DNA from: a virus
Length of the DNA: 24,021 bases
Direction: 5' to 3' (one strand)
IMG/VR virus record: IMGVR_UViG_3300032304_001010
Location: 1 to 24,021 of that record
A program made the translations under genes and the position numbers. Shown here piece by piece: positions 2 through 18,216 of this stretch. Under the pieces are notes generated by a model, which was not told the DNA's origin, searched no databases, and saw only the letters and a program-made list of their open reading frames with translations. Position 1 is the stretch's first letter. Every line of letters starts with the position of its first letter.

Positions 2-1693
2 CTGACCGAAAACGACCTGCTCTACGAGGACTTCCCGGAGGTCTGTCATGCGATCAGGGCGTTGGAGGGCAAGCCGCAGCGGTGTGCCGGGCAGTCCTAC
101 CAAGGCGAGAGCACCCACATCGAATGGACCGCCGACACGATCGTGCTGCCGACGATCCCGGGCAGCAAGGCAAGCGGTGCGATCGTCTCTTGCCACGGCC
201 TCATGGCTTCGTCCCGCGGTCTGCGGTACAAGCGGGCCGACGGCGTGCAGGCCCGGCCCGACCTTGTGATCCTCGACGACATCCAGACCGACGAGTCTGC
301 GGCCTCCGCCGTGCAGGTGGCGAAGCGGCTGGCGATCATCAAGAAGAACATTCTGAAACTCGGAGGTCACGGGAAGACGCTGGCCGTGGTGTGCAACGCC
401 ACGGTGATCGCCAAGGACGACGTGATCGACCAACTGCTATCCGACCCCGCATGGCAGGGCGTGCGGGTGAAGGCGGTGCGGGCGTGGTCGAAGCGGCACG
501 ACGACCTTTGGATGGGTGAATACAAGCGGCTGCGGCAGACCTACGACAAGGAAATCGACGGCGACCAGTTGCGGGCGTGGCGGGAGGCGACGGAGTTCTA
601 TCGGGTGAACCAAGCGGCGATGGACGAAGGCTGCGAGGTCTACTGGGAACACTGCTACGACCGAGAGCAAGAGCTATCCGCCGTCCAGCACTTCTACAAC
701 GCTTTGATCGACGACGGGCCGGAGGTGTTCGCCAGCGAGTACCAGCAGGAGCCGCTTGCCGACGAATCCCGCACCGACGCCGTCCGGCCTGCGGATCTCG
801 TCAGCCATGCGATCAACGTGCCGCAGTGGATCGTGCCGGCCGGCTGCAGCACGCTCACGGCGTTCGTGGACGTGCAAGAAGCGTGCCTCTACTGGCTGGT
901 GGCTGCATGGGGGCCGCAGCTTCGCGGGCACACGGTGGCCTACGGCACGTACCCCGACCAACACCGGCAGTATTTCGCACTCCGGGACGTGGAGAAGACG
1001 CTGCGGCTTGCGGCCGGCAACGCCCCGCTGGCTGATGCCATGCACCAGGGGCTCGAGGTGGTGGCGGCGGAGATTCTTGATCGGGAGTTTCAGTCAGAGG
1101 ATTCCGACGCCGTTCACCGGGTCGCCCTGATGCTCGTGGACGCCAACTGGGCACAGACCGCCGACGTGACCCGGGACTTTGCCCGTCGTTCACGCCACGG
1201 CACCCGCCTGATGCCGTCCCACGGTCGCTACGTCGGTGCAAGCCGGCGGACGATGTCCGACGCCAAGGCGGAGCCGGGCGAACGGGTCGGGGCCCACTGG
1301 CGGACATCGACGATCAAGAAGGGTCGCCACATCCTCTTCGATACGAACTATTGGAAGTCGCTTGTGATCGGCCGGATGAAGCTGGGTGCGGCCGACCCGA
1401 TGGCGTTCACGTTCCATTCCGGTAGGCACGAGATGCTGTTCGACCATCTCTCGAGCGAGTACCCGGTTCGCACCGAGAACAAATCCACCGGGCGGACAGT
1501 GGACGAATGGCAGCTCGTCCCTGGAAGGGACAACCACTGGCTCGACGGTGTCGTTGGTGCAGCGGTTGCGGCGAGCGTTGTTGGTGTGTCGGCGGTTGGT
1601 GCGGAGTCGCCGAAGGGACTTGTGCGAAGACGGATCACGGCGGAAGAGATGGCTGCCAGGCGGGCGGAAATCATCGCCAGGCATTCGGGTTGA
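2..1693 (+). CDS. Phage terminase large subunit, GpA-like (5' end outside window)
   Basis: This is the motor and nuclease that cuts concatemeric phage DNA and pumps it into proheads. The frame is open from base 2, so the true start and the Walker A motif lie upstream; 563 residues are visible. An LVILDD segment (nt 263-280) is the Walker B-like ATPase site. The C-terminal nuclease half shows the expected acidic residues: the Asp of FVDV (nt 869-871), the Asp of MLVDANW (nt 1139-1141) and the Asp of HWLDGVVGA (nt 1544-1546), a pattern known from the GpA family. The gpW-like and portal genes downstream fit lambda order (A-W-B), but here the cassette array separates them from this gene. The internal TTG at 62 is not a credible start because the homologous sequence continues upstream. 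Family assignment is from motif recall. Confidence 0.9.
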   Translation: MTENDLLYEDFPEVCHAIRALEGKPQRCAGQSYQGESTHIEWTADTIVLPTIPGSKASGAIVSCHGLMASSRGLRYKRADGVQARPDLVILDDIQTDESAASAVQVAKRLAIIKKNILKLGGHGKTLAVVCNATVIAKDDVIDQLLSDPAWQGVRVKAVRAWSKRHDDLWMGEYKRLRQTYDKEIDGDQLRAWREATEFYRVNQAAMDEGCEVYWEHCYDREQELSAVQHFYNALIDDGPEVFASEYQQEPLADESRTDAVRPADLVSHAINVPQWIVPAGCSTLTAFVDVQEACLYWLVAAWGPQLRGHTVAYGTYPDQHRQYFALRDVEKTLRLAAGNAPLADAMHQGLEVVAAEILDREFQSEDSDAVHRVALMLVDANWAQTADVTRDFARRSRHGTRLMPSHGRYVGASRRTMSDAKAEPGERVGAHWRTSTIKKGRHILFDTNYWKSLVIGRMKLGAADPMAFTFHSGRHEMLFDHLSSEYPVRTENKSTGRTVDEWQLVPGRDNHWLDGVVGAAVAASVVGVSAVGAESPKGLVRRRITAEEMAARRAEIIARHSG

Positions 1694-1795: not shown

Positions 1796-1804
1796 GTTCT
1801 CAAC
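1796..1804. repeat. Left boundary half-site of the cassette array
   Basis: GTTCTCAAC here is the same as the R-box end of attC sites 4 and 8, but no TGCATC arm or paired stem precedes it. It reads as the degenerate or truncated outer end of the array, two bases upstream of the first cassette ORF. Confidence 0.5.
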
Positions 1805-1805
1805 A

Positions 1806-2327
1806 ATGCTCAAAAATGATGGACATCACGAGCTTGATTTGCTGCCAGTGCTTCGCACTCTGGCCGACGGCGTGCGAGGTATGGGCCTCGGCGACCCAGA
1901 CTGCGGCGAACGCATAGAGGCAAGCGATGTTGTTCGGTGGGCTGTTGACGAGATCGAACGCCTGAGACTCACCGACGAGGAGCGTGAGGCGATCAGGTTT
2001 GCGTCCGCTTTGTACGAGCGCGGCGGACGCGAGGACTGCGCTGCCACGCTGCGTAGCCTTCTGGAGCGTGCGCCCCGAACGTATTTCAGAACAGCTGGAA
2101 AGCGACTGATTACGAATATGAGTGGGGATTGGATTCCAGTTTCGCAGCGGCTGCCGACCATCGGCGAGCAAGTGCTTGTGGTGGCGCTCGGTCGCGTCAT
2201 TACGGCGACGAGACGAGAAGGCTGGTGGAGGCATGAGGTCGGCACCGTAACCAAGACGTTCTCGCTAGGTTGCTGCGCCCCGACGCACTGGATGCCGCTC
2301 CCGGCACCGCCGACGGACGGCAAGTAG
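1806..2327 (+). CDS. Cassette ORF 1: helical LTDEERE module plus DUF551
   Basis: Function is unknown; the product is 173 residues. Residues 50-88 carry the module that recurs in the array (EIERLRLTDEEREAI ... TLRSLLER). Residues 107-173 match the DUF551 pattern, with WIPVSQRLP at its start and THWMPLPAPP at its end. DUF551 is a small domain common in phage and prophage accessory proteins and has no known activity. I chose ATG 1806 because it lies directly after the array boundary; a TTG at 1746 in the same frame would start outside the array and runs through the boundary repeat. No clear Shine-Dalgarno sequence precedes either start. The TAG stop lies three bases before the R box of attC 1. 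This is the only cassette ORF whose upstream attC is not recognisable. Confidence 0.7.
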   Translation: MLKNDGHHELDLLPVLRTLADGVRGMGLGDPDCGERIEASDVVRWAVDEIERLRLTDEEREAIRFASALYERGGREDCAATLRSLLERAPRTYFRTAGKRLITNMSGDWIPVSQRLPTIGEQVLVVALGRVITATRREGWWRHEVGTVTKTFSLGCCAPTHWMPLPAPPTDGK

Positions 2328-2329
2328 CC

Positions 2330-2419
2330 ACAGAACGTGAAGGATCAGGAGCGGCGAGACATGGACACTGACAACACGCGAGACGCAGCCGAGCCGTCTC
2401 TTGCATCCGCTGGTTCTCA
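2330..2419. repeat. attC-type site 1
   Basis: R box ACAGAAC (2330-2336), 6-nt spacer, then arm GATCAGGAGCGGC from 2343. The opposite arm GCCGTCTCTTGCATC ends at 2407, followed by a 5-nt spacer and R box GTTCTCA (2413-2419). The arms pair except for the two extrahelical bases found in all sites. The outer two R-box bases do not match, unlike in attC 3 and 6. The ATG of cassette ORF 2 lies in the loop at 2361, after AGGAG at 2347-2351. Confidence 0.85.
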
Positions 2420-2687
2420 GCCGGAGGCGTGGGCGAACGAGGACGACGATGGCATCTACGAGGTAGGACTTTCTGAGGCTCATGCACACTACGTCTGGGT
2501 GAGAGCGGCGACCGGCAAGTTTCGGCATCGCAATCCGCGCATCGTCCCGCTTTACCGCCATCCGCAGACCACTCTCACCGACGCGGAGCGGGAGGCGGTC
2601 GGGATGGCATATAGTCGCCTGACGGCAATTCCACACTACGAGGCAGTCTCCGCGACGTTGCGCAGGCTGCTGGAACGACTAGGCTGA
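2361..2687 (+). CDS. Cassette ORF 2: hypothetical protein with LTDAERE/LLERL module
   Basis: The protein has 108 residues and unknown function. It starts inside attC 1 (AGGAG at 2347-2351, nine bases before the ATG), so its first 20 residues, ending EPSLASAGSQ, are attC-encoded. A central stretch ending IVPLYRHPQ closely resembles IVPVYRSP in cassette ORF 9, and both run straight into the recurring C-terminal module, here LTDAEREAVGMA ... TLRRLLERLG. The TGA stop is the first three bases of the TGAGAAC R box of attC 2, so the ORF fills its cassette exactly. An upstream in-frame GTG at 2337 falls in the attC spacer and is less likely. The shared layout with ORF 9 suggests two members of one cassette family. 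Confidence 0.75.
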   Translation: MDTDNTRDAAEPSLASAGSQPEAWANEDDDGIYEVGLSEAHAHYVWVRAATGKFRHRNPRIVPLYRHPQTTLTDAEREAVGMAYSRLTAIPHYEAVSATLRRLLERLG

Positions 2688-2775
2688 GAACGCCAAGGAT
2701 CAGGAGCGGCGAGGAGCAGACCATGAGCCAACCAAACGACACCAACGAGCCGTCTCCTGCATCTGCTGGGTCTCA
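2685..2775. repeat. attC-type site 2, with altered R box
   Basis: R box TGAGAAC (2685-2691), spacer GCCAAG, arm GATCAGGAGCGGC; opposite arm GCCGTCTCCTGCATC, 5-nt spacer, then GGTCTCA (2769-2775). The conserved GTT triplet is changed to GGT, which in known systems should impair recombination at that box. The site is otherwise nearly identical to attC 7. It carries GAGGAG (2711-2716) and the ATG of ORF 3 at 2723. Confidence 0.85.
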
Positions 2776-3355
2776 CAACACGCACATGGCTACGGCGAGG
2801 CTGTCGGCGGCGAACACATGGCTGCAAGAAGAAATCAAGCGGCTGCGCCTCACCCACTTGGAGCGGCAGGTGATATTTCGCGCGATGTATCGGGCTACCG
2901 GCGTAGACTCCGCAGTACTCGGTTCGCTGCTGGAGCGGACTCTTGCATCCGCTGGTTCTGTGGCGCACCCGTTTGAGCAGATCATTCGCGGCACGGTCAG
3001 GCTCCATGAGTTGATTGAGCAAGGGCGATGTGATTCCGACGAGGCCGACGCCGTGCGGGACGAGATGGATGTGCCATTCTTGGAATTGAGCGAGAGCGAG
3101 CGAGAGGCGGCGCGTCTGGTTTCGGCGGCGATCAAACATCGGGATTGGATTCCGGTGGCGGAGCGGCTGCCAGCAAGGAACGTCAACGTCTTGATCCACA
3201 TCCCGGTTGCCGACGAGAAGACATACATCGCATCGCTTGACGAGGGCGGCATGTGGTTCAGCACTGACCCGACCGCTGACGCATACAGTCTCGGTGAGGA
3301 TGGTGCGCCAACGCACTGGATGCCGCTTCCGGCCCCGCCGAGCGACGGCAAGTAG
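2723..3355 (+). CDS. Cassette ORF 3: fused cassette protein ending in DUF551
   Basis: This is a 210-residue protein of unknown function that appears to be a fusion. It begins in attC 2 with good GAGGAG spacing (6 nt), giving leader MSQPNDTNEPSPASAGSH. Residues 37-72 resemble the recurring helical module (EEIKRLRLTHLERQV ... GSLLER). A second attC leader remnant, TLASAGSV (residues 73-80), follows at once, encoded by an attC 3' arm with no 5' arm. Then comes a helical stretch with SESEREAARLV, and a DUF551 domain (residues 141-210, WIPVAERLP ... THWMPLPAPP) closely like that of ORF 1. The simplest reading is that a deletion joined two neighbouring cassettes in frame. The TAG stop is three bases before the R box of attC 3. 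Confidence 0.75.
   Translation: MSQPNDTNEPSPASAGSHNTHMATARLSAANTWLQEEIKRLRLTHLERQVIFRAMYRATGVDSAVLGSLLERTLASAGSVAHPFEQIIRGTVRLHELIEQGRCDSDEADAVRDEMDVPFLELSESEREAARLVSAAIKHRDWIPVAERLPARNVNVLIHIPVADEKTYIASLDEGGMWFSTDPTADAYSLGEDGAPTHWMPLPAPPSDGK
2943..2961. repeat. attC half-site remnant inside ORF 3
   Basis: TTGCATC (2943-2949), a 5-nt spacer and GTTCTGT (2955-2961) reproduce the 3' arm of an attC, including its leader codons, with no matching GATCA arm upstream. The bases before it encode LLER, the usual end of a cassette ORF, so the missing 5' arm marks a deletion junction. Confidence 0.7.
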
Positions 3356-3357
3356 CC

Positions 3358-3445
3358 ACAGAACGGCTGCGATCAGCGGCCCGCGACCGCTGACTTACCA
3401 TTCCAGCAGACGGCATCGCGGGTCCGCTGCATCGCTTGGTTCTGT
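3358..3445. repeat. attC-type site 3
   Basis: The R boxes ACAGAAC (3358-3364) and GTTCTGT (3439-3445) are perfectly complementary. The spacers are GGCTGC (6 nt) and GCTTG (5 nt). Arms GATCAGCGGCCCGCGA and TCGCGGGTCCGCTGCATC pair over 16 bp with exactly two bulged bases. This is the cleanest attC in the window and belongs to the same stem type as attC 8. No ORF starts inside it. Confidence 0.9.
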
Positions 3446-3471
3446 GTTTTTCATCAACAGGAGAATGAGCA

Positions 3472-3744
3472 ATGTCAGAGAAGGTCAAGGTCGCAAGCAT
3501 CGTCGTTGTGTTTCCCGGCGGCGAGCGGCGAGAGATGACGCTGGACGAGGCGAAGGCTTTGCACGCGCAACTTGCGGAGTTGTTTGGCAGCAAGCCGGCC
3601 GTCATTTCGGTTCCGGTCTACGTTCAACGGGATCACTGGCCGCGAATCATCGACACGCCGCAGCCGGTGTGGTACGAGACGCAGCCGAACACGGGGCGGC
3701 CGGGTCTTCCGCAAGTGTGGTGCAAGGCGGATTCGACGATCTGA
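3472..3744 (+). CDS. Cassette ORF 4: hypothetical 90-residue protein
   Basis: I do not recognise this protein. Unlike most cassette ORFs it starts outside the attC, 26 bases after attC 3, with its own AGGAG (3460-3464) seven bases before the ATG, so it lacks the attC leader. The N-terminal half (VKVASIVVVFPGGERREMTLDEAKALHAQLAELFG) looks like a beta strand or hairpin followed by an amphipathic helix. The C-terminal half is rich in Pro, Trp and Tyr (VYVQRDHWPRI, QPVWYET). There is no signal peptide or membrane segment. The TGA stop lies three bases before the R box of attC 4. Codon composition resembles its neighbours. Confidence 0.7.
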   Translation: MSEKVKVASIVVVFPGGERREMTLDEAKALHAQLAELFGSKPAVISVPVYVQRDHWPRIIDTPQPVWYETQPNTGRPGLPQVWCKADSTI

Positions 3745-3747
3745 TAC

Positions 3748-3837
3748 ACAGAACACGCAGGATCAGGAGCATCGCATGACTGACGAAACTACACCGACCG
3801 ACGCCGCAGCGATGCCTCCTGCATCCGCTGGTTCTCA
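3748..3837. repeat. attC-type site 4
   Basis: R boxes ACAGAAC (3748-3754) and GTTCTCA (3831-3837), with 6- and 5-nt spacers. Arms GATCAGGAGCATCGC and GCGATGCCTCCTGCATC pair with the two standard bulges. AGGAG inside the 5' arm (3765-3769) and the ATG at 3776 serve ORF 5, so ribosome binding would compete with stem formation in the mRNA. Confidence 0.87.
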
Positions 3838-4138
3838 ACTGCGAGAGCAGATCGCCGCGCTCGTCCATGACGCGATGCGGTTTGACCGTGAGGCGAAAAC
3901 CCCGAAGTGGTATGGCGGAAACAGTCACGCCGAGAGCAGGGCGATGCTGGCAGCGAGTCGGATTGTGAAGTTGTTGCAGCCCACGCTCACCGACGAGGAG
4001 CGAGAGGACTTGCAGATGTGGATTTCCGAGTGTCTTCGGCAGTGCCGCAACGCGACGGACGGCAACGACTGGGACGCCGCCGAGAGATGGAGCGGCAGGG
4101 CTGCGAGGGCCGCAAAAATGTTGGAACGGTTGAAGTGA
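3776..4138 (+). CDS. Cassette ORF 5: hypothetical protein with LTDEERE module
   Basis: A 120-residue, largely helical soluble protein of unknown function. ATG 3776 follows AGGAG by six bases, both inside attC 4; the leader ends AAMPPASAGSQ. The body begins REQIAALVHDAMRFDREA, a likely amphipathic helix. The recurring module appears as PTLTDEEREDLQMWISECLRQC and ends in MLERLK, here less typical than in ORFs 1, 2 and 9. The TGA stop is the first part of the TGAGAAC R box of attC 5, so the coding sequence ends exactly at the cassette edge. The frame stays open upstream of 3776, but those codons overlap ORF 4 and the attC and are unlikely to be used. Confidence 0.75.
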   Translation: MTDETTPTDAAAMPPASAGSQLREQIAALVHDAMRFDREAKTPKWYGGNSHAESRAMLAASRIVKLLQPTLTDEEREDLQMWISECLRQCRNATDGNDWDAAERWSGRAARAAKMLERLK

Positions 4139-4224
4139 GAACACGGAAGATCAACGGCGGCCACCGGAGGATTCACCATGACGCATGACGTAGCAGGGCC
4201 GTCCGTTGCATCGGCTGGTTCTCT
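4136..4224. repeat. attC-type site 5
   Basis: R boxes TGAGAAC (4136-4142) and GTTCTCT (4218-4224). Arms GATCAACGGCGGCC and GGGCCGTCCGTTGCATC pair with the same two bulges, although the stem sequence differs from the other sites, which is compensatory variation. GGAGG (4166-4170) and the ATG of ORF 6 (4178) are in the loop. Confidence 0.85.
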
Positions 4225-4501
4225 TCGCTGGCGGCTCTTTGTCGTTGCTGCTGCGGTGGCGTGTTGCTCGCCATCGTTGGCAATACAATGCTCTGGCTGG
4301 GACCAGGACGCGAGCGCCTTTGCGGAGCAGAGAGAGTTAGCGGCATGGAACAAAGAGCAGAGGTTGCTGAACGCTCCTGCGGATTCTGTCCAAGAGTTGC
4401 GGAGACTGAGGGAGGAGGTCGCGGGATTGCGACAGGAAGTTGCCGGATTGCGTAAGGATTTGTCCCGTTCTCGTCACCGTAGGCCGCAAGATGACAAATG
4501 A
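4178..4501 (+). CDS. Cassette ORF 6: membrane-anchored coiled-coil protein
   Basis: 107 residues, not assigned to a known family. The attC 5-encoded leader MTHDVAGPSVASAGS is followed directly by a basic-flanked hydrophobic segment, LRWRLFVVAAAVACCSPSLA (about residues 16-35). This could be a signal peptide or a single membrane anchor; the two Cys could allow lipoprotein-like processing, but no clear lipobox is present. The rest is charged and helical, with heptad-like LRRLREEVAGLRQEVAGLRK near residues 74-93 suggesting a coiled coil, then a basic tail. The shape (N-terminal anchor plus coiled coil) recalls small phage membrane proteins such as spanin or exclusion factors, but nothing specific supports those roles. 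It overlaps ORF 7 by 11 bases in a different frame. Confidence 0.7.
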   Translation: MTHDVAGPSVASAGSLRWRLFVVAAAVACCSPSLAIQCSGWDQDASAFAEQRELAAWNKEQRLLNAPADSVQELRRLREEVAGLRQEVAGLRKDLSRSRHRRPQDDK

Positions 4502-4697
4502 CGAACGCCGGGCGATCCTTGATTCGCTCACTCCAGAACAGCGGCTCGGCATCGCGGCGATCATTCGCAGCCAGGAGCCGTCTGGCGATTGGGGATACGA
4601 CGACGACGGCAGCGGGTTCATTGAGTCAGTTGAGGAGACGCTGGCGGCACTCGCTCGCGTGTTTGAGGACTACGATCCGAAATCGGTGATCGAATAA
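4491..4697 (+). CDS. Cassette ORF 7: small acidic hypothetical protein
   Basis: 68 residues, strongly acidic, unknown function. The ATG at 4491 overlaps the end of ORF 6, so the two genes share one cassette and are probably translationally coupled; no attC lies between them. The product opens MTNDERRAILDSLTPEQRLG, which may be a distant echo of the LTDEERE motif of other cassettes, and continues with an Asp/Gly-rich segment and the helix FIESVEETLAALARVF. It lacks an attC leader. The TAA stop overlaps the first base of the R box of attC 6. An earlier in-frame start at 4440 would lie deep in ORF 6 and is less likely. Confidence 0.65.
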   Translation: MTNDERRAILDSLTPEQRLGIAAIIRSQEPSGDWGYDDDGSGFIESVEETLAALARVFEDYDPKSVIE

Positions 4698-4786
4698 GAG
4701 AACACCAAAGATCAGAAGATCGCGACAATGGAGACTGACAACATGAACGACGACGCTCGCGATTCTTCTGCATCGCGTGGTTCTCT
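4697..4786. repeat. attC-type site 6
   Basis: The R boxes AGAGAAC (4697-4703) and GTTCTCT (4780-4786) are fully complementary. Arms GATCAGAAGATCGCGA and TCGCGATTCTTCTGCATC pair over 16 bp with the two standard bulges. The ATG of ORF 8 (4728) is in the loop but only a weak ribosome binding sequence is visible. Confidence 0.88.
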
Positions 4787-5042
4787 CTGTGGGGACACCG
4801 CCGTTATCGCCGCCATCGTTTCGGCGCTGGTGTCAGTGGTTGTGTCTGGCGTGTGGCTTGCTGCGTGGAGTGACGCGGAGGCGACGCGGCTGAAAGGCGT
4901 GTATCTGAAGTTGGGTGACCATGAAAACGACTTGGTGATTCACGGCCAGTGCCTTGATCGAATCTGGATGGACGGCTACGGGGTGCGTCGCCCTCGTACT
5001 TACGAGGCCCGCCCGTACAGGCCGCAGTCGGCGGAAGAGTGA
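4728..5042 (+). CDS. Cassette ORF 8: small single-pass membrane protein
   Basis: 104 residues, unknown function. The attC 6 leader ends DSSASRGSL, a variant of the usual S-A-S-x-G-S. It is followed at about residues 24-48 by a strong transmembrane segment (TAVIAAIVSALVSVVVSGVW). The charged C-terminal part contains HENDLVIHGQCLDRIW and a basic Pro/Tyr-rich tail. The layout of attC leader, membrane segment and charged domain repeats that of ORF 6 with no obvious sequence identity. Small membrane proteins encoded between phage structural genes are often host-modifying accessory genes; that role is inference only. A second ATG at codon 6 is possible. The TGA stop overlaps the R box of attC 7. 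Confidence 0.7.
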   Translation: METDNMNDDARDSSASRGSLCGDTAVIAAIVSALVSVVVSGVWLAAWSDAEATRLKGVYLKLGDHENDLVIHGQCLDRIWMDGYGVRRPRTYEARPYRPQSAEE

Positions 5043-5132
5043 GAGAACGCCAAGGATCAGGAGCGGCGAGGAGCAGACCATGAGCCAACCAAACGACACC
5101 AACGAGCCGTCTCCTGCATCCTCTGGTTCTCA
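5042..5132. repeat. attC-type site 7 (near duplicate of site 2)
   Basis: R boxes AGAGAAC (5042-5048) and GTTCTCA (5126-5132), with arms, loop, GAGGAG (5068-5073) and ORF start as in attC 2. From the GAGAAC to the TGCATC arm the two sites read the same, including the loop; the differences are in the last dozen bases. Here the GTT triplet is intact. Confidence 0.88.
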
Positions 5133-5415
5133 CGGGGTTGCGGTCGGATGGATTCTTTTTTATGGCGAGCGGATGACGTTCGATGTCGTTTTTGACGACC
5201 GAGACGAAGCGGAAAAGTATTGCCGCGCCTATGAACGAAAGCCAGATATTGTTCCGGTCTACCGCTCGCCCACGCTCACCGACGAGGAGCGGGAGGCGGT
5301 CGGCTTTTTCTTAGAGAAGCACAGGAAAATCCAAAGCGAGGGACAAACCTACTGTTGCGTGGAGGCGAGTCCGCACGCGGATGCAATTCAGGGTCTGCTG
5401 GGGCGATTGGCTTGA
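5080..5415 (+). CDS. Cassette ORF 9: hypothetical protein with LTDEERE module
   Basis: 111 residues, unknown function. ATG 5080 lies in attC 7 six bases after GAGGAG and gives the leader MSQPNDTNEPSPASSGSH, almost the same as in ORF 3. The body has a beta-rich N-terminal part (VGWILFYGERMTFDVVFDD) and then DEAEKYCRAYERKPDIVPVYRSP, which parallels the IVPLYRHP segment of ORF 2. The recurring module follows (LTDEEREAVGFFLEKH ... AIQGLLGRLA). The TGA stop is part of the TGAGAAC R box of attC 8. The link from IVPxYR to LTDEEREAV in two separate cassettes marks ORFs 2 and 9 as related. Confidence 0.75.
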   Translation: MSQPNDTNEPSPASSGSHGVAVGWILFYGERMTFDVVFDDRDEAEKYCRAYERKPDIVPVYRSPTLTDEEREAVGFFLEKHRKIQSEGQTYCCVEASPHADAIQGLLGRLA

Positions 5416-5502
5416 GAACGCTTGCGATCAGCGGCCCGCGACCTATGACCATGAACAAACCATCCGACGCTCTCGCGGGTCCGCTGCATCGCGTGGTTCT
5501 CA
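5413..5502. repeat. attC-type site 8
   Basis: The R boxes TGAGAAC (5413-5419) and GTTCTCA (5496-5502) are fully complementary, with spacers GCTTGC (6 nt) and GCGTG (5 nt). Arms GATCAGCGGCCCGCGA and TCGCGGGTCCGCTGCATC are the same as in attC 3, while the loop differs. No ORF starts inside the site. Confidence 0.9.
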
Positions 5503-5517
5503 ACGGGGATTGGGGAA

Positions 5518-5754
5518 ATGTGTGATGTCGTTGTGATCGACGGGAACGCGGTTGAGACGATACGCGAACTGCGAGCGGCGATTCCGCTCGCGGAGGTGAA
5601 AAAGGCTAAACGCTACAAGGCAATACCGCCAGACGATTCCTGCCTGTGCGGCGTTGACGTTGAGGCCACGCTTAGACAGGCGGGCAGAGATTTTGAGTAC
5701 GATCCGATATTCGGGCGGTGGAAGGTGTGGTCGCCTTTCAGGCCGGAAAGTTGA
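5518..5754 (+). CDS. Cassette ORF 10: hypothetical 78-residue protein
   Basis: I do not recognise this protein. It starts 15 bases after attC 8, preceded by a G-rich stretch that may act as a weak ribosome binding site, and so has no attC leader, like ORF 4 behind the similar attC 3. Features are a short beta strand (CDVVVIDG), a helix (AVETIRELRAAIPLAEVKKAKRY), a central DDSCLCGVD segment with two nearby Cys, and an aromatic C-terminus (FGRWKVWSPF). The TGA stop is part of TGAGAAC at 5752-5758, the right end of the array, so this ORF also fills its cassette to the edge. Confidence 0.7.
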   Translation: MCDVVVIDGNAVETIRELRAAIPLAEVKKAKRYKAIPPDDSCLCGVDVEATLRQAGRDFEYDPIFGRWKVWSPFRPES

Positions 5755-5786
5755 GAACCAGTGATTATCCGGACCATGATAATCAC
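5750..5786. repeat. Right end of array with perfect inverted repeat
   Basis: GTTGAGAAC (5750-5758) closes the array. Two bases later a perfect 9-bp inverted repeat begins: GTGATTATC (5761-5769), 8-nt loop, GATAATCAC (5778-5786). It is AT-rich, has no T tract, and is unlike the attC arms. It might be an operator, an attI-like accessory element, or a transcript-end hairpin; the sequence alone does not decide. Confidence 0.5.
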
Positions 5787-5898
5787 CCATAATCGGACGC
5801 CCTGCTGCATATCACCCCGCCGAATCGGCGCCGCACGGCCGCGAAACGCGAAACAGGCGCGTTATCAAGGTCCGCATAACACGCCGGGAGGATCCCCA

Positions 5899-6469: not shown

Positions 6470-7920
6470 TGGGGTTTCTCTCCCGCATCATGGGCGGTGG
6501 TGCCAGCCGGTCGAGTCTCCAGCAGACGATCGACACGCAGCAGGCTGCCATCTCCACGCTGGTGCGGGCGAAGTACGACGCGGCACAGACGAACGATCTG
6601 AACCGCAACCACTGGTCCCGGGCGGATCACCTGTCCGCTGACGCCAGCCTGCAGCCGCACGTCCGCCAGACGCTCCGAAACCGTGCCCGGTACGAGTTGC
6701 GAAATAACTCCTACGCCGCCGGCATCGCCTCCACTTGGAGCAACGATCTCGTCGGCACCGGCCCCCGGCTGCAACTCGACCTCGGCCCCGACGTGTCCGC
6801 GGAAGCCGTGCGGACGATCGAGATCGCCATCGCAGATTGGGCCGACGCAATCGACCTCGCCCGCAAGCTGCGGATCGCAAAGACCTCGAAGATCAGCGAC
6901 GGCGAAGTGTTCGGCTTGGTGACGAACAACCGCCTGCTCCAGGGCGTGCAGCTCGACATCAAGCTGATCGAGGCCGATCAGGTCATGTCTCCGATGGGCC
7001 TGCTCACGTCCAACGACGTTGACGGGCTGCGGTTCGACGACGACGGCAACGTCACGGGCTACTGGGTGTCGAAGCGGCACCCTGGATCCCTTGCAGCCGG
7101 CTACGCTCTCGACGGCAACTGGGTTGATGCCGGAAACGTGTGCCACTGGTTCCACGCAACCCGCCCCGGGCAGCATCGCGGTGTCCCGGAGATCACTCCG
7201 GCCCTGGAACTGTTCGCCCTTCTTCGCCGGTACACGCTCGCCGTGGTGACGGCGGCCGAGACGGCTGCATCGTTCGCCGCGATCTTGAAGACGACCATGC
7301 CGGCCGACGGCTCCGGGGCTGCGAGCCTCGAGACGCTGGAGACGATGCCGATCGTCCGCGGCATGGCGATCGCCGCCCCGGACGGGTGGGAACCGGTCCA
7401 GATGAAGGCCGAGCATCCAACTTCAAGCCACGACGCATTCGTGCGTCGGCTACTCAACGAGATCGCCCGCTGCCTGGATATGCCCTACATCGTGGCAGCG
7501 ATGGATTCGTCCACGGCCAACTACTCGTCAATGCGTGGCGATTACTTGGTCTATCGCAAGCGGATCGCCGTCGAGCGGTCGGACATGGAGCGGACGTTCC
7601 TTGATCCGCTCCTCTACTCGTGGCTCGACGAGGCGGTCGTGGCCGGCGTCCTGCCCCGCGGCCTCCCGCCGTTCGCTGCCTGGAACTGGACGTGGGTGTG
7701 GGACGGCTTCGAGCACGTCGATCCGCTCAAGGAAGCCGACGCCGACGCCGCGATGGTCACGAACAACATGGCGAGCCTCGCCGAAGTGTGCAGCAAGCGC
7801 GGCAAGGACTGGCGGGTCGTGGTCCGGCAGCGGGCCGCCGAGAAGGCGATGGAGCGTGAGTTGGGCATCGAGGTCGCCCCGCAGCCGGCCCGCCCGCAGC
7901 CACAGGAGCAACCATCGTGA
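6469..7920 (+). CDS. Phage portal protein, lambda family
   Basis: The portal forms the dodecameric ring at one capsid vertex, through which the terminase pumps DNA and to which the neck attaches. The product is 483 residues, near the size of lambda gpB (533). Typical features of the lambda portal family are an early RARYELRNNSYAAGIASTWSNDLVGTG segment in several helices, LIEADQVMSP, the VSKRHPGS and VCHWFHATRPGQHRGVPEITPAL stretch, and ARCLDMPYIVAAMDSSTANYSSMR with YSWLDEAV near the C-terminus. ATG 6469 overlaps the stop of the gpW-like gene. The gene overlaps the protease-capsid gene by GTGA at its end. A Gln/Pro-rich tail closes the protein. Confidence 0.93.
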   Translation: MGFLSRIMGGGASRSSLQQTIDTQQAAISTLVRAKYDAAQTNDLNRNHWSRADHLSADASLQPHVRQTLRNRARYELRNNSYAAGIASTWSNDLVGTGPRLQLDLGPDVSAEAVRTIEIAIADWADAIDLARKLRIAKTSKISDGEVFGLVTNNRLLQGVQLDIKLIEADQVMSPMGLLTSNDVDGLRFDDDGNVTGYWVSKRHPGSLAAGYALDGNWVDAGNVCHWFHATRPGQHRGVPEITPALELFALLRRYTLAVVTAAETAASFAAILKTTMPADGSGAASLETLETMPIVRGMAIAAPDGWEPVQMKAEHPTSSHDAFVRRLLNEIARCLDMPYIVAAMDSSTANYSSMRGDYLVYRKRIAVERSDMERTFLDPLLYSWLDEAVVAGVLPRGLPPFAAWNWTWVWDGFEHVDPLKEADADAAMVTNNMASLAEVCSKRGKDWRVVVRQRAAEKAMERELGIEVAPQPARPQPQEQPS

Positions 7921-9773
7921 GCAACCGCATCGAACTGTCCGCGACGCTGAACGTGCAGGCCGCCGACGAGGCGACCACGCCGACGTTTCAGTTGGTGGCG
8001 TACACCGGGGCAGCCATCCGGCAGGGGTGGAGCCGGAACCCTCTGGTGGTGGATCTCGCACAGATCGACGCCTCGCGTCCGATCCCGATTCTTTACGCCC
8101 ACGGCAAAGAAATGCCGCTGCTCGACTCCGTGATCGGCAAGAGCGTCGAGGCGACCAACGACGGCAGCCAACTCCTGCTCACCGGTGAGTTGATCCGCGG
8201 GACGCCCGCCGGCGACAAGCTGATTGCTCTGGCGAAGGCAGGCGTGCCGCTGCAGGCATCCATCGGAGCCGACGTTGGCTCGATCGAAAACATCGCCGCG
8301 GGAGCAAGCGTGACCGTGAACGGTCGCGAGTTCGCCGGCCCCATCAGTGTTGCTCGTGGAGCGGTTCTCCGTGAGACGAGCGTGGTCCTGTTCGGTGCGG
8401 ACAGTCAAACGTCCGCGGCTATCGCCGCCGAGGCGAATGAGGTTTCCCCCATGAGCGACAAGCTCAACGAGACGCCTGTCGATGCCGTCAAGGCTTCGGC
8501 GGAAGACACGGCGAGCGTCGCCGTGGAGAAGACCCCTGAGATCAAGGCTCACGCCCCCACCGCCGAAGAGATCGCGGGCCTCGTGCTCGAGAAGATTCGG
8601 GCGGAGCGGCTTGACGAGGTTCGTGCTTCCCGTGCCGTTGCCCCGGCTCCGGCCATCCACGTCACCGACGTGGCTGCCCAGAGCGAGCCGAAGGTGGTCG
8701 AGGCGGCCCTGTGCCTCGCGGGCGGTCTGCCCAACGTGGAGAAGGTCTTCGATCAGAAGACGCTCGAACTGGCCGACAAGCGTCGGAACCAGTCGAGTCT
8801 CCAGGAGGTGCTCGTTGAGGCCGCTCGCAAGAACGGCTATTCCGGCGTGAACCGCATCCACGCGGGCAACATCGGCGAGGTGCTGGCCGGTGCGTTTCCC
8901 CGGGTCCAGGCGAGCGGGTTTGCTACCCACTCGATAAGCAACGTGCTTGCCGCGACCTACGGCAAGTTCTTGCTCCAGGGCTACACGGCGGTCGAATCGA
9001 CGTGGGACCGGATCGCCTCGATCCGCCCCGTGTCGGACTACAAGACCGTCACCGGCGTGCGGCTGAACGGCGGCTTCGAGTTCGAGGATGTTGGTCCTGC
9101 CGGCGAACTGAAGTCGGCGGACGCGACGGACGAGACGCGGACGATCAAGGCCAAGCTGACCGGCCGCCTCTCGAGCGTGACGATGGTGGATATCGTGAAC
9201 GACGACTTGGGGGCTCTGACCCAGGTTCCTTCTCGGCTCGGCCGCGGAGCGGCGATCAAGCTGAACAAGGATTTCTGGACGGAGTACCAGTTGAACAACG
9301 CGACGTTCTACCAGCGGGAGTCGCCGGCCGCCGGCAACGCCCTCTCGATCTCGTCGCTGCGGACGGCTGTCACTTCTTACCGGAAGCTGACCGACCCCGA
9401 CGGCAATCCGCTCGGCATCACGCCGACGATGTTGCTCGTCCCGCCGGAACTGGAGATCACCGCCGACGAGCTCATGGGCTCGACGGTGCTCATCACCGGC
9501 GAGAACGCCACCCGTGGCAACGTGAACGTGTTCGCCGGTCGGTTCCAGGTCGTGTACTCGTCGTACCTGACGAGCGGAACGACGTGGTGGCTGGTGGCGA
9601 ACCCGGCCGACCTGCCCTGCATGGAGGTCGCGTTCCTCAACGGGCAGCGGACTCCGACGGTGCAGCAGGCCGATGCCGATTTCAACCAGCTCGGCATCCA
9701 GGTCCGCGGCTTCTTCTCCTACGGCGTCGCCAAGGCCGAAGGTCGTGCGGCCTACCGGATGGCGACCGCCTGA
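7917..9773 (+). CDS. Prohead protease fused to Mu gpT-like major capsid protein
   Basis: A 618-residue polyprotein. The N-terminal part (about residues 1-175) resembles HK97/Mu-type prohead proteases: ILYAHGKEMPLLDSVIGKS carries a candidate catalytic His62, and PLQASIGADV a candidate Ser115. A low-complexity charged linker (about 180-270) looks like the scaffold or delta region. The rest matches the Mu-like major head subunit: LNKDFWTEYQLNNATFY, GITPTMLLVPPELEITADEL and the C-terminal FFSYGVAKAEGRAAYRMATA. The protease would cleave itself off during capsid maturation. An internal ATG at 8451 (residue 179) sits exactly at the domain boundary and might allow separate capsid synthesis. GTG 7917 overlaps the portal stop. 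A hairpin follows the stop. Confidence 0.9.
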   Translation: MSNRIELSATLNVQAADEATTPTFQLVAYTGAAIRQGWSRNPLVVDLAQIDASRPIPILYAHGKEMPLLDSVIGKSVEATNDGSQLLLTGELIRGTPAGDKLIALAKAGVPLQASIGADVGSIENIAAGASVTVNGREFAGPISVARGAVLRETSVVLFGADSQTSAAIAAEANEVSPMSDKLNETPVDAVKASAEDTASVAVEKTPEIKAHAPTAEEIAGLVLEKIRAERLDEVRASRAVAPAPAIHVTDVAAQSEPKVVEAALCLAGGLPNVEKVFDQKTLELADKRRNQSSLQEVLVEAARKNGYSGVNRIHAGNIGEVLAGAFPRVQASGFATHSISNVLAATYGKFLLQGYTAVESTWDRIASIRPVSDYKTVTGVRLNGGFEFEDVGPAGELKSADATDETRTIKAKLTGRLSSVTMVDIVNDDLGALTQVPSRLGRGAAIKLNKDFWTEYQLNNATFYQRESPAAGNALSISSLRTAVTSYRKLTDPDGNPLGITPTMLLVPPELEITADELMGSTVLITGENATRGNVNVFAGRFQVVYSSYLTSGTTWWLVANPADLPCMEVAFLNGQRTPTVQQADADFNQLGIQVRGFFSYGVAKAEGRAAYRMATA

Positions 9774-12186: not shown

Positions 12187-13245
12187 ATGATTGAACACCT
12201 CCACCGCATCGCCGCCCACGCCTACTACGTTGGCGAGGAAGCCGCCGGCCGCCGGGCGTGCGAACGCCTGCTCCGGCTGCCGCTGTCGCCGGAGCGCGAG
12301 GAGAAGGTGCGGTCGAACCGCACCTGGTACACGCAGACGATCCGCGACCTTGGCGTGGACGCACGGTTCCGCCGGATTGAAGTCTCCCCGGCCGCACCCG
12401 GCTGGTCGCTGTTCAACCCGTCGGTCGTGATCCACCACGGCCGGATGCTGGTCAACGTCCGGTCGAGCAACTACCGGATCGTGGACGGCCGGTACGTCAT
12501 GCCGCCGGAAGATCGCGAGACGATCAAGACACGCAACTGCCTGTGGATTCCAGGACGCGATCAGGCCACCTACTGGTCGGCCGACTACGAGACGACCGGA
12601 TACCCCGTCGAGGGGCTCGAGGACGTTCGCCTCAACTCCGTTGACGGCAGGCTGATCGTCTCGGCTACTGTCCGCAACTGGGCCTGCCTGGACGGCACAT
12701 GCCGGATCGGCGTTGGCCGGTTGGACCTGGTCGATCGGATCGACGGGCTGCGGGTCCACTCCACGATCGACGGCCGGCACGAGAAGAACTGGATGCCGAT
12801 CACCGGACGGAAAGAGTTCGTCTACCACTGCAGCCACGAAGGCCGGACGTGCCTCGTGCGTGAAGAGGACGACGACTGGAGCGTGACGGCTCACGCCGAG
12901 GCTCCGCCGGTCGCCCGGGGCTTCCGCGGCGGGTCGCAGCTTGTCGAGCACCCGTGGGCACCGGGCTTGTGGTGGGCGATCGTCCACGAGGTCGCCGTCT
13001 CCGGTGGCCGCCGGGTCTACGAACACCGGTTCGTCACGTTCGACGAGGCGGCTGACTGGAAAATCGTCCGGGTGTCCCCGCCTTTCGCGTTTCGCGAATC
13101 GCGAACGATCGAGTTCTGTGCCGGCTTGTGCGTGAACGACAGCGACTCGCTGATGGCCTCGTTCGGCGTCAATGACGCAGAGGCGTGGCTGGCCCGCATT
13201 CCGATTGCCGACGTGGTCAACATCATGGGTGACGCATGGGAGTGA
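12187..13245 (+). CDS. GH130-like beta-propeller glycosidase/phosphorylase-type protein
   Basis: 352 residues from ATG 12187. GTG 12178, nine bases upstream in frame, is also possible; neither has a clear ribosome binding site. An N-terminal helical part (HRIAAHAYYVGEEAAGRRACERLLRL) resembles a TPR-like repeat. The remainder looks like a five-bladed propeller: FNPSVV, LVNVRSSNYRI, GLEDVRL, EKNWMP, RGGSQLV, IVHEV, YEHRFV and IEFCAGL. GH130 enzymes cleave or phosphorolyse mannosides and related sugars; catalysis uses acidic residues in such blades, but I cannot pinpoint them. It leads a tightly overlapping block with two methyltransferases and a glycosyltransferase. A pure binding role is also possible. 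Confidence 0.65.
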   Translation: MIEHLHRIAAHAYYVGEEAAGRRACERLLRLPLSPEREEKVRSNRTWYTQTIRDLGVDARFRRIEVSPAAPGWSLFNPSVVIHHGRMLVNVRSSNYRIVDGRYVMPPEDRETIKTRNCLWIPGRDQATYWSADYETTGYPVEGLEDVRLNSVDGRLIVSATVRNWACLDGTCRIGVGRLDLVDRIDGLRVHSTIDGRHEKNWMPITGRKEFVYHCSHEGRTCLVREEDDDWSVTAHAEAPPVARGFRGGSQLVEHPWAPGLWWAIVHEVAVSGGRRVYEHRFVTFDEAADWKIVRVSPPFAFRESRTIEFCAGLCVNDSDSLMASFGVNDAEAWLARIPIADVVNIMGDAWE

Positions 13246-13796
13246 CGACCTCCGCAGCTTGGACCGAGACCGTCCGCCGTGCCCTTGAGAGCAACTGGCG
13301 GGAGGATGATTGGTTCGGCTGCGACAGCCGCGTGATATTCCACTACGCGATGAAGGGCGAGATTTTCCGCCGGTACAAGCCCCGCCGCGTGATCGAGATC
13401 GGCACCCGCTGCGGGTATTCGCTGCTGACGTTCCACAAGGCCGCCCCGGGGGCTAGTTATCTGTGCATCGACGGTGCGATGGATGCCGACTCCTACGACT
13501 GTCTCGCCCACTGGCGGCGGCTTGTGGAGCGGCACGAGATCGAAGCTGACCTGATCGTGGTGGATTCGCACGCGATCAAGTCTCTCCCGCCGGCTGACTT
13601 CGCCCACGTTGACGGCGATCACTCCTACGAAGGTGCCCTGGCCGATCTCCGGCTGGTGGCCGGCTGCCGAGTGATTCTCGCCGACGACTGCGACAACCAT
13701 GCTGTGAAGGCTGCTGTTGAGCAGTTTGCCAGGGAGCAAGCCTGCACGATTGAGTATTTCGATGATGGGTTGCGAAAGGGTGCGGTGCTGACGTGA
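13236..13796 (+). CDS. SAM-dependent methyltransferase (Methyltransf_24 type)
   Basis: 186 residues of a class I methyltransferase fold. Motif I is VIEIGTRCGYS (residues 52-62), the SAM-binding loop. SYLCIDG (75-80) is the strand after which the ribose is held. HVDGDHSYEGALADL (124-138) is typical of the Methyltransf_24/O-methyltransferase group, where HVDGDH carries metal- or substrate-binding residues. The substrate is probably a sugar, given the flanking propeller and glycosyltransferase genes. The gene overlaps the upstream one by 10 bases and the next by GTGA. The last stretch of the reading frame shows no membrane segment, so the protein is cytosolic. Confidence 0.8.
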   Translation: MGVTTSAAWTETVRRALESNWREDDWFGCDSRVIFHYAMKGEIFRRYKPRRVIEIGTRCGYSLLTFHKAAPGASYLCIDGAMDADSYDCLAHWRRLVERHEIEADLIVVDSHAIKSLPPADFAHVDGDHSYEGALADLRLVAGCRVILADDCDNHAVKAAVEQFAREQACTIEYFDDGLRKGAVLT

Positions 13797-14422
13797 GCCT
13801 CATGGAGCAGCTCGAGAAGCGTGGCGACCTGTGGTGGCCGAAGGCCGACCACGGGTGCTGGGAGTGGATGCACGCCGACGCCGGGCTGCCGGACGCACTC
13901 ATGGCCCACTGCCGGCAGTTCCGAACGGTGATCGTGGCCGGGGCGAATGCGGGCTTCTACATCGCGGCCTATGCCTCCCGGTTTGAGCGGGTGATCGCGG
14001 TCGAGCCGGAGCCGGTCAACTTCCTGGCACTCACGCTGAACTGCCCGCAGCCCAACGTCATCAAGGTGCAGGCGGCGCTTGGCAACGTCCGCGGTGATGT
14101 CGGCGTGCGAACCGATCACGAGGGGAACTGCGGCGGCTTCTATGTCACCGAGCGTGGCTTGATCCCCATCCTGCGGATCGACGACTTCGCGGCCTGCGTC
14201 GATGCCATCCACCTTGACGTGGAAGGCTATGAGGCTCCGGTCCTTACGGGGGCCGACAAGACGATCGCCGAAAACCACCCGACGATCATGGTTGAGTCGA
14301 TCGGCAACGGCAACCGTTTCGGATACTCCGGCGAGCACGTTCCGCTGATGCTTCTGTCCGGCGGCTACACGGTTGCCGAGAATCTCAAGCACGACACGAT
14401 CTACAAGTGGGGTGGTGCATGA
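13793..14422 (+). CDS. FkbM family methyltransferase
   Basis: 209 residues. SAM-binding motifs are TVIVAGANAGFYIAAYAS (residues 45-62) and RVIAVEPEPVNFLALTLN (66-83); the signature IHLDVEGYEAPVLTGADKTI (139-158) is characteristic of the FkbM/Methyltransf_21 family, which O-methylates sugars and related small molecules. The first motif has GANAG rather than the more usual GANIG. GTG 13793 overlaps the upstream stop (GTGA); ATG 13802 would remove three residues. The gene ends in an ATGA overlap with the glycosyltransferase, so all four carbohydrate genes are coupled. The likely target is a glycan laid down by the next gene product; this is inferred from context. Confidence 0.82.
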   Translation: MSLMEQLEKRGDLWWPKADHGCWEWMHADAGLPDALMAHCRQFRTVIVAGANAGFYIAAYASRFERVIAVEPEPVNFLALTLNCPQPNVIKVQAALGNVRGDVGVRTDHEGNCGGFYVTERGLIPILRIDDFAACVDAIHLDVEGYEAPVLTGADKTIAENHPTIMVESIGNGNRFGYSGEHVPLMLLSGGYTVAENLKHDTIYKWGGA

Positions 14423-15471
14423 AAGTTGCCATCTACGCTCTTGCCAAGAACGAGGCCGCCAACGTCGAGCGGTGGGAAGCCTCGTGCCGCGAGGCCGACT
14501 ACCGTGTGGTGACTGACACGGGCAGCACAGACGGCACCCTGGAGTTGCTCGGCAACGCTGGGGTGTCGGTGGCCCACGGGGCTCCAATCCCGTGGCGTTG
14601 GGACGATGCCCACAACCTCTCACTGATGCACGTCCCGGCCGACGTGGACGTGGCGATCCGACTCGACCTTGACGAAGCCTTGGACCCGGGCTGGCGGGAA
14701 GCGCTGGAGAGGGACTGGAAGCCCGGGACGACGAAACTCCGCTACTGGTATTGGTGGTCGAACGAAGTGCGGTTCCGCTGCGACCGGGTCCACTCCCGGC
14801 ATGGGTATCGGTGGACCGGGGCGACCCACGAGGGGCTTGTCCGGTGGTCCGGCGATGAGGTGCAGACCTACTCCGACGGTCTGGTGATCCGGCACCACCG
14901 GCAGCCCGACAAGAAGCACCGCACCGACCTGGAGTTGCTCCGCCGGGCCGTGGCCGAGAATCCGACCGACGCCCGGATGGCGTGGTATCTCGCCCGGGAG
15001 TTGGACTACGCCGGCGACAAGGGCGCCGGGCCGGCGTTCGCTGCCTATCTCACGATGGCGGGCGGGGCACCAAACGAGCGGGCCTATGCCCGCCGGTCGC
15101 TGGCGAGGCTGGACCCGAAGGGCGGCAACCTGCACATGCTGGCGGCCATGCTCGAGGCACCGCTGGAGCCGGAGCCCTACGTCCACGTTGCCAACCTTGC
15201 GTGGAAGAAACGGGACGCCGCGGCCACGCTCCACTTTGCACGGCAGGCGATCAACTGCTCGGACGAGAACCGGACGCATACCAGCGATCCGGAGTGCTAT
15301 GGGGATTCCCCGGCAGACCTCGCCTATTCCGCAGCCTACGAGTTGGGCCTGATTGACGAGGCTCTGGTCTACGCCCGTGAAGCCGCAGCCCGCAACCCCG
15401 GCGAGCCTCGCCACGCCGCCAACGTCTCGGCACTTGAGAGAATGATTGCGGAGGACGGACCCAAGCCATGA
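14419..15471 (+). CDS. Family 2 glycosyltransferase with TPR-like C-terminus
   Basis: 350 residues from ATG 14419. An N-terminal GT-A fold begins KVAIYALAKNEAANVERW. It has the nucleotide-sugar loop TDTGSTDGT (32-40) and the metal-site segment RLDLDEAL (81-88), a variant of the DxD motif. GATHEGLV (134-141) is typical of this glycosyltransferase group. The C-terminal half is helical and TPR-like (AWYLARELDYAGD, AYSAAYELGLIDEALVYAREAAARNP). Such enzymes transfer sugars onto proteins or glycans in the cytoplasm. Placed among virion genes, it may glycosylate a capsid or tail protein, or alter a host glycan. ATGA overlaps join it to both neighbours. Confidence 0.85.
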   Translation: MKVAIYALAKNEAANVERWEASCREADYRVVTDTGSTDGTLELLGNAGVSVAHGAPIPWRWDDAHNLSLMHVPADVDVAIRLDLDEALDPGWREALERDWKPGTTKLRYWYWWSNEVRFRCDRVHSRHGYRWTGATHEGLVRWSGDEVQTYSDGLVIRHHRQPDKKHRTDLELLRRAVAENPTDARMAWYLARELDYAGDKGAGPAFAAYLTMAGGAPNERAYARRSLARLDPKGGNLHMLAAMLEAPLEPEPYVHVANLAWKKRDAAATLHFARQAINCSDENRTHTSDPECYGDSPADLAYSAAYELGLIDEALVYAREAAARNPGEPRHAANVSALERMIAEDGPKP

Positions 15472-18082: not shown

Positions 18083-18216
18083 TAGCCCAGCAAGCCGAGT
18101 TCAACCGCGACCCGAAGAAGCGGCCACACCCTTTCGACTCGTCCGAGTTCCACCCCATGCGTGAGCCACCCTCGGTCCCGGTCGCCAGCGATGATGTCGT
18201 GAGGGAGCTGATATGA
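17950..18216 (+). CDS. Tail assembly chaperone, T-like frame
   Basis: An 88-residue segment in the -1 frame relative to the G-like gene. The conserved-looking part is WEYAGILGVHPGQWSLRQLF, then DAVRGRRREAWNHTSALIAQQAEFNRDPKK and a tail with FDSSEFHPM. I recall this pattern from short ORFs between the chaperone and tape-measure genes of related phages (Trp, then a helix, then RDPKK and a Phe-x-Pro end). It could be made as a G-T fusion by -1 frameshifting at 17811-17819 or nearer the overlap, or start alone at GTG 17950, which has no good ribosome binding site. The frame is open from 17782. It ends in an ATGA overlap with the tape measure. Confidence 0.65.
   Translation: MDPWTLGWEYAGILGVHPGQWSLRQLFDAVRGRRREAWNHTSALIAQQAEFNRDPKKRPHPFDSSEFHPMREPPSVPVASDDVVRELI

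Follow-up and report, generated by a model that had tools for sequence, protein, structure and literature searches.

Is the block of short genes and repeated hairpins that lies between the terminase and portal genes of a phage an integron-type cassette array and, if so, which enzyme moves its cassettes? The DNA analysed here (the window) is a 24,021-nt viral sequence from IMG/VR. A first-pass annotation, made from the letters alone, had proposed that this block is a CALIN-like cassette array carried by a phage. PHROG matches confirmed its placement: the array occupies positions 1796-5758, with the gene of the terminase large subunit (TerL; 62..1693, + strand, E = 9e-23), whose start lies at or beyond the window edge, on the left and the portal gene (6472..7920, + strand, E = 4e-64) on the right. 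Capsid/protease (7917-9773) and tape measure (18213-20102) genes lie beyond. Within the structural gene cluster, the region 13236-15471 also holds ORFs that resemble methyltransferases, and the gene at 14407-15471 matches a glycosyltransferase (PHROG beta-1,4-glycosyltransferase). Sequence comparisons point to Planctomycetota as the probable host phylum of the window phage; distant TerL relatives (≤46% amino acid identity) were present in 33 of 294 Planctomycetota genomes. A cyanobacterial host was considered and rejected, TerL being found in none of 101 genomes of the Cyanobium order. No close isolated phage was found, the top match showing ∼30% TerL identity, and an Rfam search returned no relevant match.

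The array contains eight full attC-type hairpins, one half-site and an attI-like right end. The hairpins, which correspond to the eight sites of ∼90 bp noticed at first, scored 64-89 bits with a covariance model whose training set, assembled in this analysis, comprised 18 diverse sites and included four from the window; site 1 was also recovered by a structural scan. Each consists of a NNAGAAC box, 6 nt, a GATCA arm, a loop, a TGCATC arm, 5 nt and a GTTCTNN box, and two unpaired bases, T and C, stand six pairs apart on the right arm; spacers, arms and unpaired bases are those of the first-pass annotation and the scan upheld all of them. The scan requires no more than AAC...GTT, spacers of 6 and 5 nt, and 3+6+4 pairs flanking the two bulges; applied to 2.05 Mb from related viral records, it gave 274 matches, compared with a single one in the reversed control. 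The bulged bases were T in 256 and C in 267 of these 274 matches. The compensating changes originally noticed in the stems proved real: 39 double-changed cells were counted, compared with 14.2 in shuffles, and none of 500 shuffles reached 39. Stem columns were 95% paired, and sliding by one column abolished pairing. The sites thus display the R and L boxes, the 5/6-nt spacers and the two extrahelical bases on one arm that characterize attC.

The scan also found the aadA1 attC of plasmid R100, once, on the recombinogenic bottom strand. The phage coding strand therefore corresponds to the attC bottom strand, as the earlier minus-strand reading had correctly held, and it follows, though this had not been concluded at first, that the phage genes run antisense to attC. 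The aadA1 site, from a class 1 integron, resembles the phage sites in its 5/6-nt spacers and in two bulges six pairs apart, and differs from them in its T and G bulges, shorter loop, GTTRRRY boxes and canonical gene direction. In addition, the phage-trained covariance model detected attC arrays of hosts, among them the array of a planctomycete contig that carries intI (L225). The RAGAAC/GTTCTY boxes initially described are indeed seen in the window but are less constant in relatives, where only the AAC/GTT core is invariant (GTTAT...ATAAC in L133). GTT is mostly followed by CT or AT, which departs from the consensus GTTRRRY/RYYYAAC; the prevalent CT, unlike the published RRRY, counts against an integron explanation, and many host sites deviate likewise. 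Short versions of ∼52 nt from which the long loop has gone were also observed (L133:2604-2658, L132:12579-12630 and L224:13780-13832). The search, which started from a strict pattern and undercounts degenerate or shortened hairpins, located sites in at least 120 viral stretches, most viral records being fragments.

The eight sites and the units that they delimit all lie on the + strand, the attC top strand being the minus strand. The leftmost unit (1796..2330) has no hairpin on its left, carries a gene with DUF551 (1806-2327) and ends that do not match, and is probably made of two fused or truncated cassettes. Cassette 1 (2336..2690) combines site 1 (2328..2421; 89.4 bits) with gene 2361-2687, and its ends are identical over 10 nt. 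Site 2 (2683..2777; 72.8 bits) is followed by the gene of cassette 2 (2691..3363), an in-frame fusion (gene 2723-3355) with a C-terminal DUF551. A remnant half-site inside it (∼2930-2962) has a box, GTTCTGTGGC, that matches the unit end at 3362 over 10 nt, and cassette 2 is for this reason read as two fused cassettes. That site has lost its left half, and the resulting protein of 210 aa contains an internal stretch encoded by the site (LASAGS). Next come site 3 (3356..3447; 64.1 bits) with cassette 3 (3364..3753; gene 3472-3744; 9 nt end identity), and site 4 (3746..3839; 82.0 bits), which holds the start codon of the gene (3776-4138) of cassette 4 (3754..4141). Site 5 (4134..4226; 82.1 bits) belongs to cassette 5 (4142..4702), where gene 4178-4501 is accompanied by a second ORF ending at 4697. 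Site 6 (4695..4788; 83.3 bits) and gene 4728-5042 form cassette 6 (4703..5047; 8 nt end identity), while site 7 (5040..5134; 80.5 bits), 97% identical to site 2, and gene 5080-5415 form cassette 7 (5048..5418). Finally, site 8 (5411..5504; 76.0 bits) lies in cassette 8 (5419..5757; gene 5518-5754; 9 nt end identity), which adjoins the attI-like end.

These units behave as cassettes. Seven of the eight cassettes in the window show a match of 7-10 nt between the bases that follow GTT and the reverse complement of those preceding the next AAC, and the match across one site within the array is usually shorter than that within one cassette. Over 2 Mb, within-cassette matching reached a run sum of 563, compared with a mean of 276 and a maximum of 329 in 2000 shuffles. 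Such matching is expected if the two ends of each unit formed one site in a circle. Identical cassettes were also found in other phages. Where two contigs share a gene, the hairpin upstream of it was in most pairs much more alike than the downstream hairpin, and in the pairs L053/L064 and L024/L064 identity begins and ends exactly at AAC. From these limits and the kept upstream hairpin we concluded that the unit is a hairpin plus the following gene, cut between AA and C in the left box. Matching ends and breakpoints at the AAC/GTT box are the marks of integron cassettes.

It had been reasoned at first that related phages with the same genes in the same order would refute a cassette array. The comparison gave the opposite result. 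A phage nearly identical to that of the window (L133; TerL 99% identical in amino acids, portal 97% and right flank 90% in nucleotides) carries an entirely different set of cassettes at this locus. The array of another relative (L132) consists of exactly one cassette, and a third (L123) has none.

Virus cassettes were oriented opposite to attC in 88 of 92 clear cases (88:4), whereas host integron cassettes were so in three of 17 (3:14), a small host sample (P = 1e-11 for the virus-host difference); the arrangement in which the gene precedes attC in the same orientation is thus not that of the virus cassettes. The loop carries the Shine-Dalgarno (SD) sequence and ATG of the downstream gene in 179 of 230 viral sites, compared with two of 41 host sites and 19 of 230 shuffled ones, and GTT falls in one reading frame in 174 of 182 viral sites. 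Therefore, attC usually encodes the N-terminus of its own gene, with a consensus around S-ASAGS, and, attC and gene being oppositely oriented, each such cassette would supply its own SD and ATG in the hairpin loop. In most loci with recognised TerL or portal relatives, the array lies between both genes on the coding strand, the arrangement differing in L010, L048 and L061; in other phages it comes after the sliding-clamp gene. Pfam searches with 140 cassette proteins gave 15 matches to DUF551, seven to DNA methyltransferase families and one Mom-like match, most proteins having none, which would fit a cargo of anti-restriction and accessory functions.

The right end of the array (5756..5835, - strand) reads AAC followed by CAGTGATTATCCGGACC, and is conserved in other phages, where it directly follows the final cassette. 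The motif AAC-CAGTG-TTTMTRCGG... had array sites just upstream at 45 of 47 places, with none downstream and none in the reversed control. When the scan started from the motif, detected sites lay upstream in 18 of 41 matches and downstream in none; among the remainder are chance matches in coding sequence and arrays that are short or escaped detection. The motif scored 22.9 bits against the attI beside intI in the planctomycete contig L225 and 16.1 bits against the place beside intI in L212, compared with a null maximum of 13.0. By sequence, the right end of the window array is attI-like.

With eight tandem sites on one strand in a record without intI, the array has the composition of a CALIN (at least two tandem attC sites in the same orientation). 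Searching for intI, as had been suggested, gave none in 50 array-bearing related virus records (TIGR02249 profile), so that no complete integron was recognised among them, and the window record, searched with PF13495 rather than TIGR02249, gave no match either. In the host phylum, intI was found: the gene exceeded the cut-off in 33 of 199 sampled Planctomycetota genomes (17%), compared with eight of the 11 genomes that have these sites. Host genomes seldom contain phage-type sites: 11 stretches, mostly of the host type, were found in ∼85,000 genomes. In a Cyanobium-labelled contig, FGCU52 (L224:9903-15720), intI reads toward the array, beside a gene that resembles lipA by sequence reading, and the array mixes canonical cassettes (mazEF-like) with two phage-type sites and reversed genes.

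The attC sites, their minus-strand layout and the turnover of cassettes support the CALIN-like array first proposed. We consider it fairly probable that the block is a phage-resident CALIN with an attI-like end, without an intI of its own, in a planctomycete phage, its cassettes being moved most likely by the IntI of the host. A host-supplied integrase would fold the coding strand, that is, the attC bottom strand, and cut between AA and C in the left box, so that single cassettes would be excised or inserted. New cassettes would enter on the right, beside the attI-like motif, and, having their own SD and ATG, might be read as part of the phage operon. IntI1 is able to recombine phage-borne attC sites (PMC9892861), and several large site-bearing records without the phage recombinase family described below also favour host IntI. 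Against it stand the rarity of phage-type sites in host genomes, though host integrons should capture them if the enzyme were shared, the presence of intI in only 17% of sampled Planctomycetota, and the strong co-occurrence of a phage tyrosine recombinase with the arrays.

A second enzyme may move the cassettes instead, because many array phages also encode one family of tyrosine recombinase, A3 (∼300 aa), that is not IntI. These phages might run an integron of their own, in which an attI-like site and this recombinase would serve to exchange reversed cassettes among phages from a pool private to them, and we give this autonomous system a chance that is real but clearly lower. PF00589 matches were found in 34 of 50 array records compared with two of 34 array-less TerL relatives (Fisher P = 5e-9). 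These counts are lower bounds, since the search missed at least one recombinase, that of G046, a close relative of the window phage in which the gene lies 7.5 kb upstream of TerL. The association may also reflect shared ancestry, because the array-less set is one distant TerL clade. All 28 extracted recombinases form one family, which was scanned by subgroup searches, and the 24 that were aligned all have the catalytic residues R, K, HxxR, H and Y. In records with mapped positions for both, the recombinase gene has the array upstream of it, on the opposite strand; in L024 the array begins directly after the recombinase gene, on the same strand. That the recombinase of L024 is itself a cassette was rejected, no left box being found upstream. 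As prophage the family is nearly absent (two of 294 Planctomycetota genomes), which also favours an autonomous system. However, sites occur in only eight of 28 independent recombinase-bearing records, and the family is missing from large site-bearing records. Single sites without this family were observed in four viral records of 123-205 kb (L051, L006, L012 and L097). A weak excisionase-like neighbour suggests, moreover, an ordinary lysogeny integrase. In L311:9516-10912 and L416:9538-10909 the recombinase is accompanied by a divergent small helix-turn-helix gene, with a weak excisionase match in L311, and this pair is possibly an int-xis module. IntI has an extra segment preceding its HxxR motif, and in our reading of the alignment the phage recombinases appear to be without such an insert. 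The AlphaFold model of a phage recombinase (pLDDT 91) retrieved general tyrosine recombinases in a fold search, with IntI among the matches and not the best of them, and a PDB sequence search gave no match.

Cassette variety could also stem from ordinary homologous recombination, between hairpins or gene ends that resemble one another, rather than from a site-specific reaction. The mutual similarity of the sites (60-97% identity in repeats) and two pairs with L092, in which the hairpin changes internally while the gene is unchanged, agree with such an origin. Nevertheless, in the best pairs the breakpoints coincide with the AAC box, homologous exchange does not predict matched ends within a cassette, and bulge geometry is conserved across sites; we regard this explanation as improbable. 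That the hairpins are translational control elements whose cassette-like look is secondary is very improbable, since such a role, although it accords with the start signals in 179 of 230 loops and the common GTT frame (174 of 182), leaves the AAC/GTT boxes, matched ends, exact breakpoints, turnover and attI-like end unexplained, and host sites have the same fold without SD and ATG.

Qi et al. (2023) surveyed 10,705 phages and found 17 CALINs (PMC9892861). Those arrays are like ours in having attC sites without intI, in occurring also in virulent phages, in a methyltransferase cargo and in attC sites that IntI1 can use. They differ in that TJE1 and PH101 had arrays of the typical structure, with everything in the same direction, while the present sites occupy at least 120 viral stretches and recur at certain genome positions, the genes run antisense to attC and have their start codon within it, the array has an attI-like end, and cassettes turn over between phages that are otherwise nearly identical. 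Models of attC exist for the chromosomal integrons of Planctomycetota (PMC8352920). These integrons share with the phage arrays the attC fold with T and C bulges, a similar length and, in L225, a similar attI, and differ from them in the canonical direction of host genes (14:3), the near absence of SD and ATG in the hairpin and the presence of intI in the genome. Among open-licence papers, our literature search retrieved no report of cassettes that are reversed and have their start codon in attC, and none of this phage locus.

The cassettes look adapted to phages, most having their own translation start in the site and nearly all being oriented with the operon. If the proposed reading is true, integron-type recombination would be a routine means of gene shuffling in a group of phages rather than a rare accident, and the possible use of attC by enzymes other than IntI would become testable. 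It would also provide a concrete route for the transfer of cassettes between cells; the Cyanobium-labelled integron holds two cassettes of the phage type.
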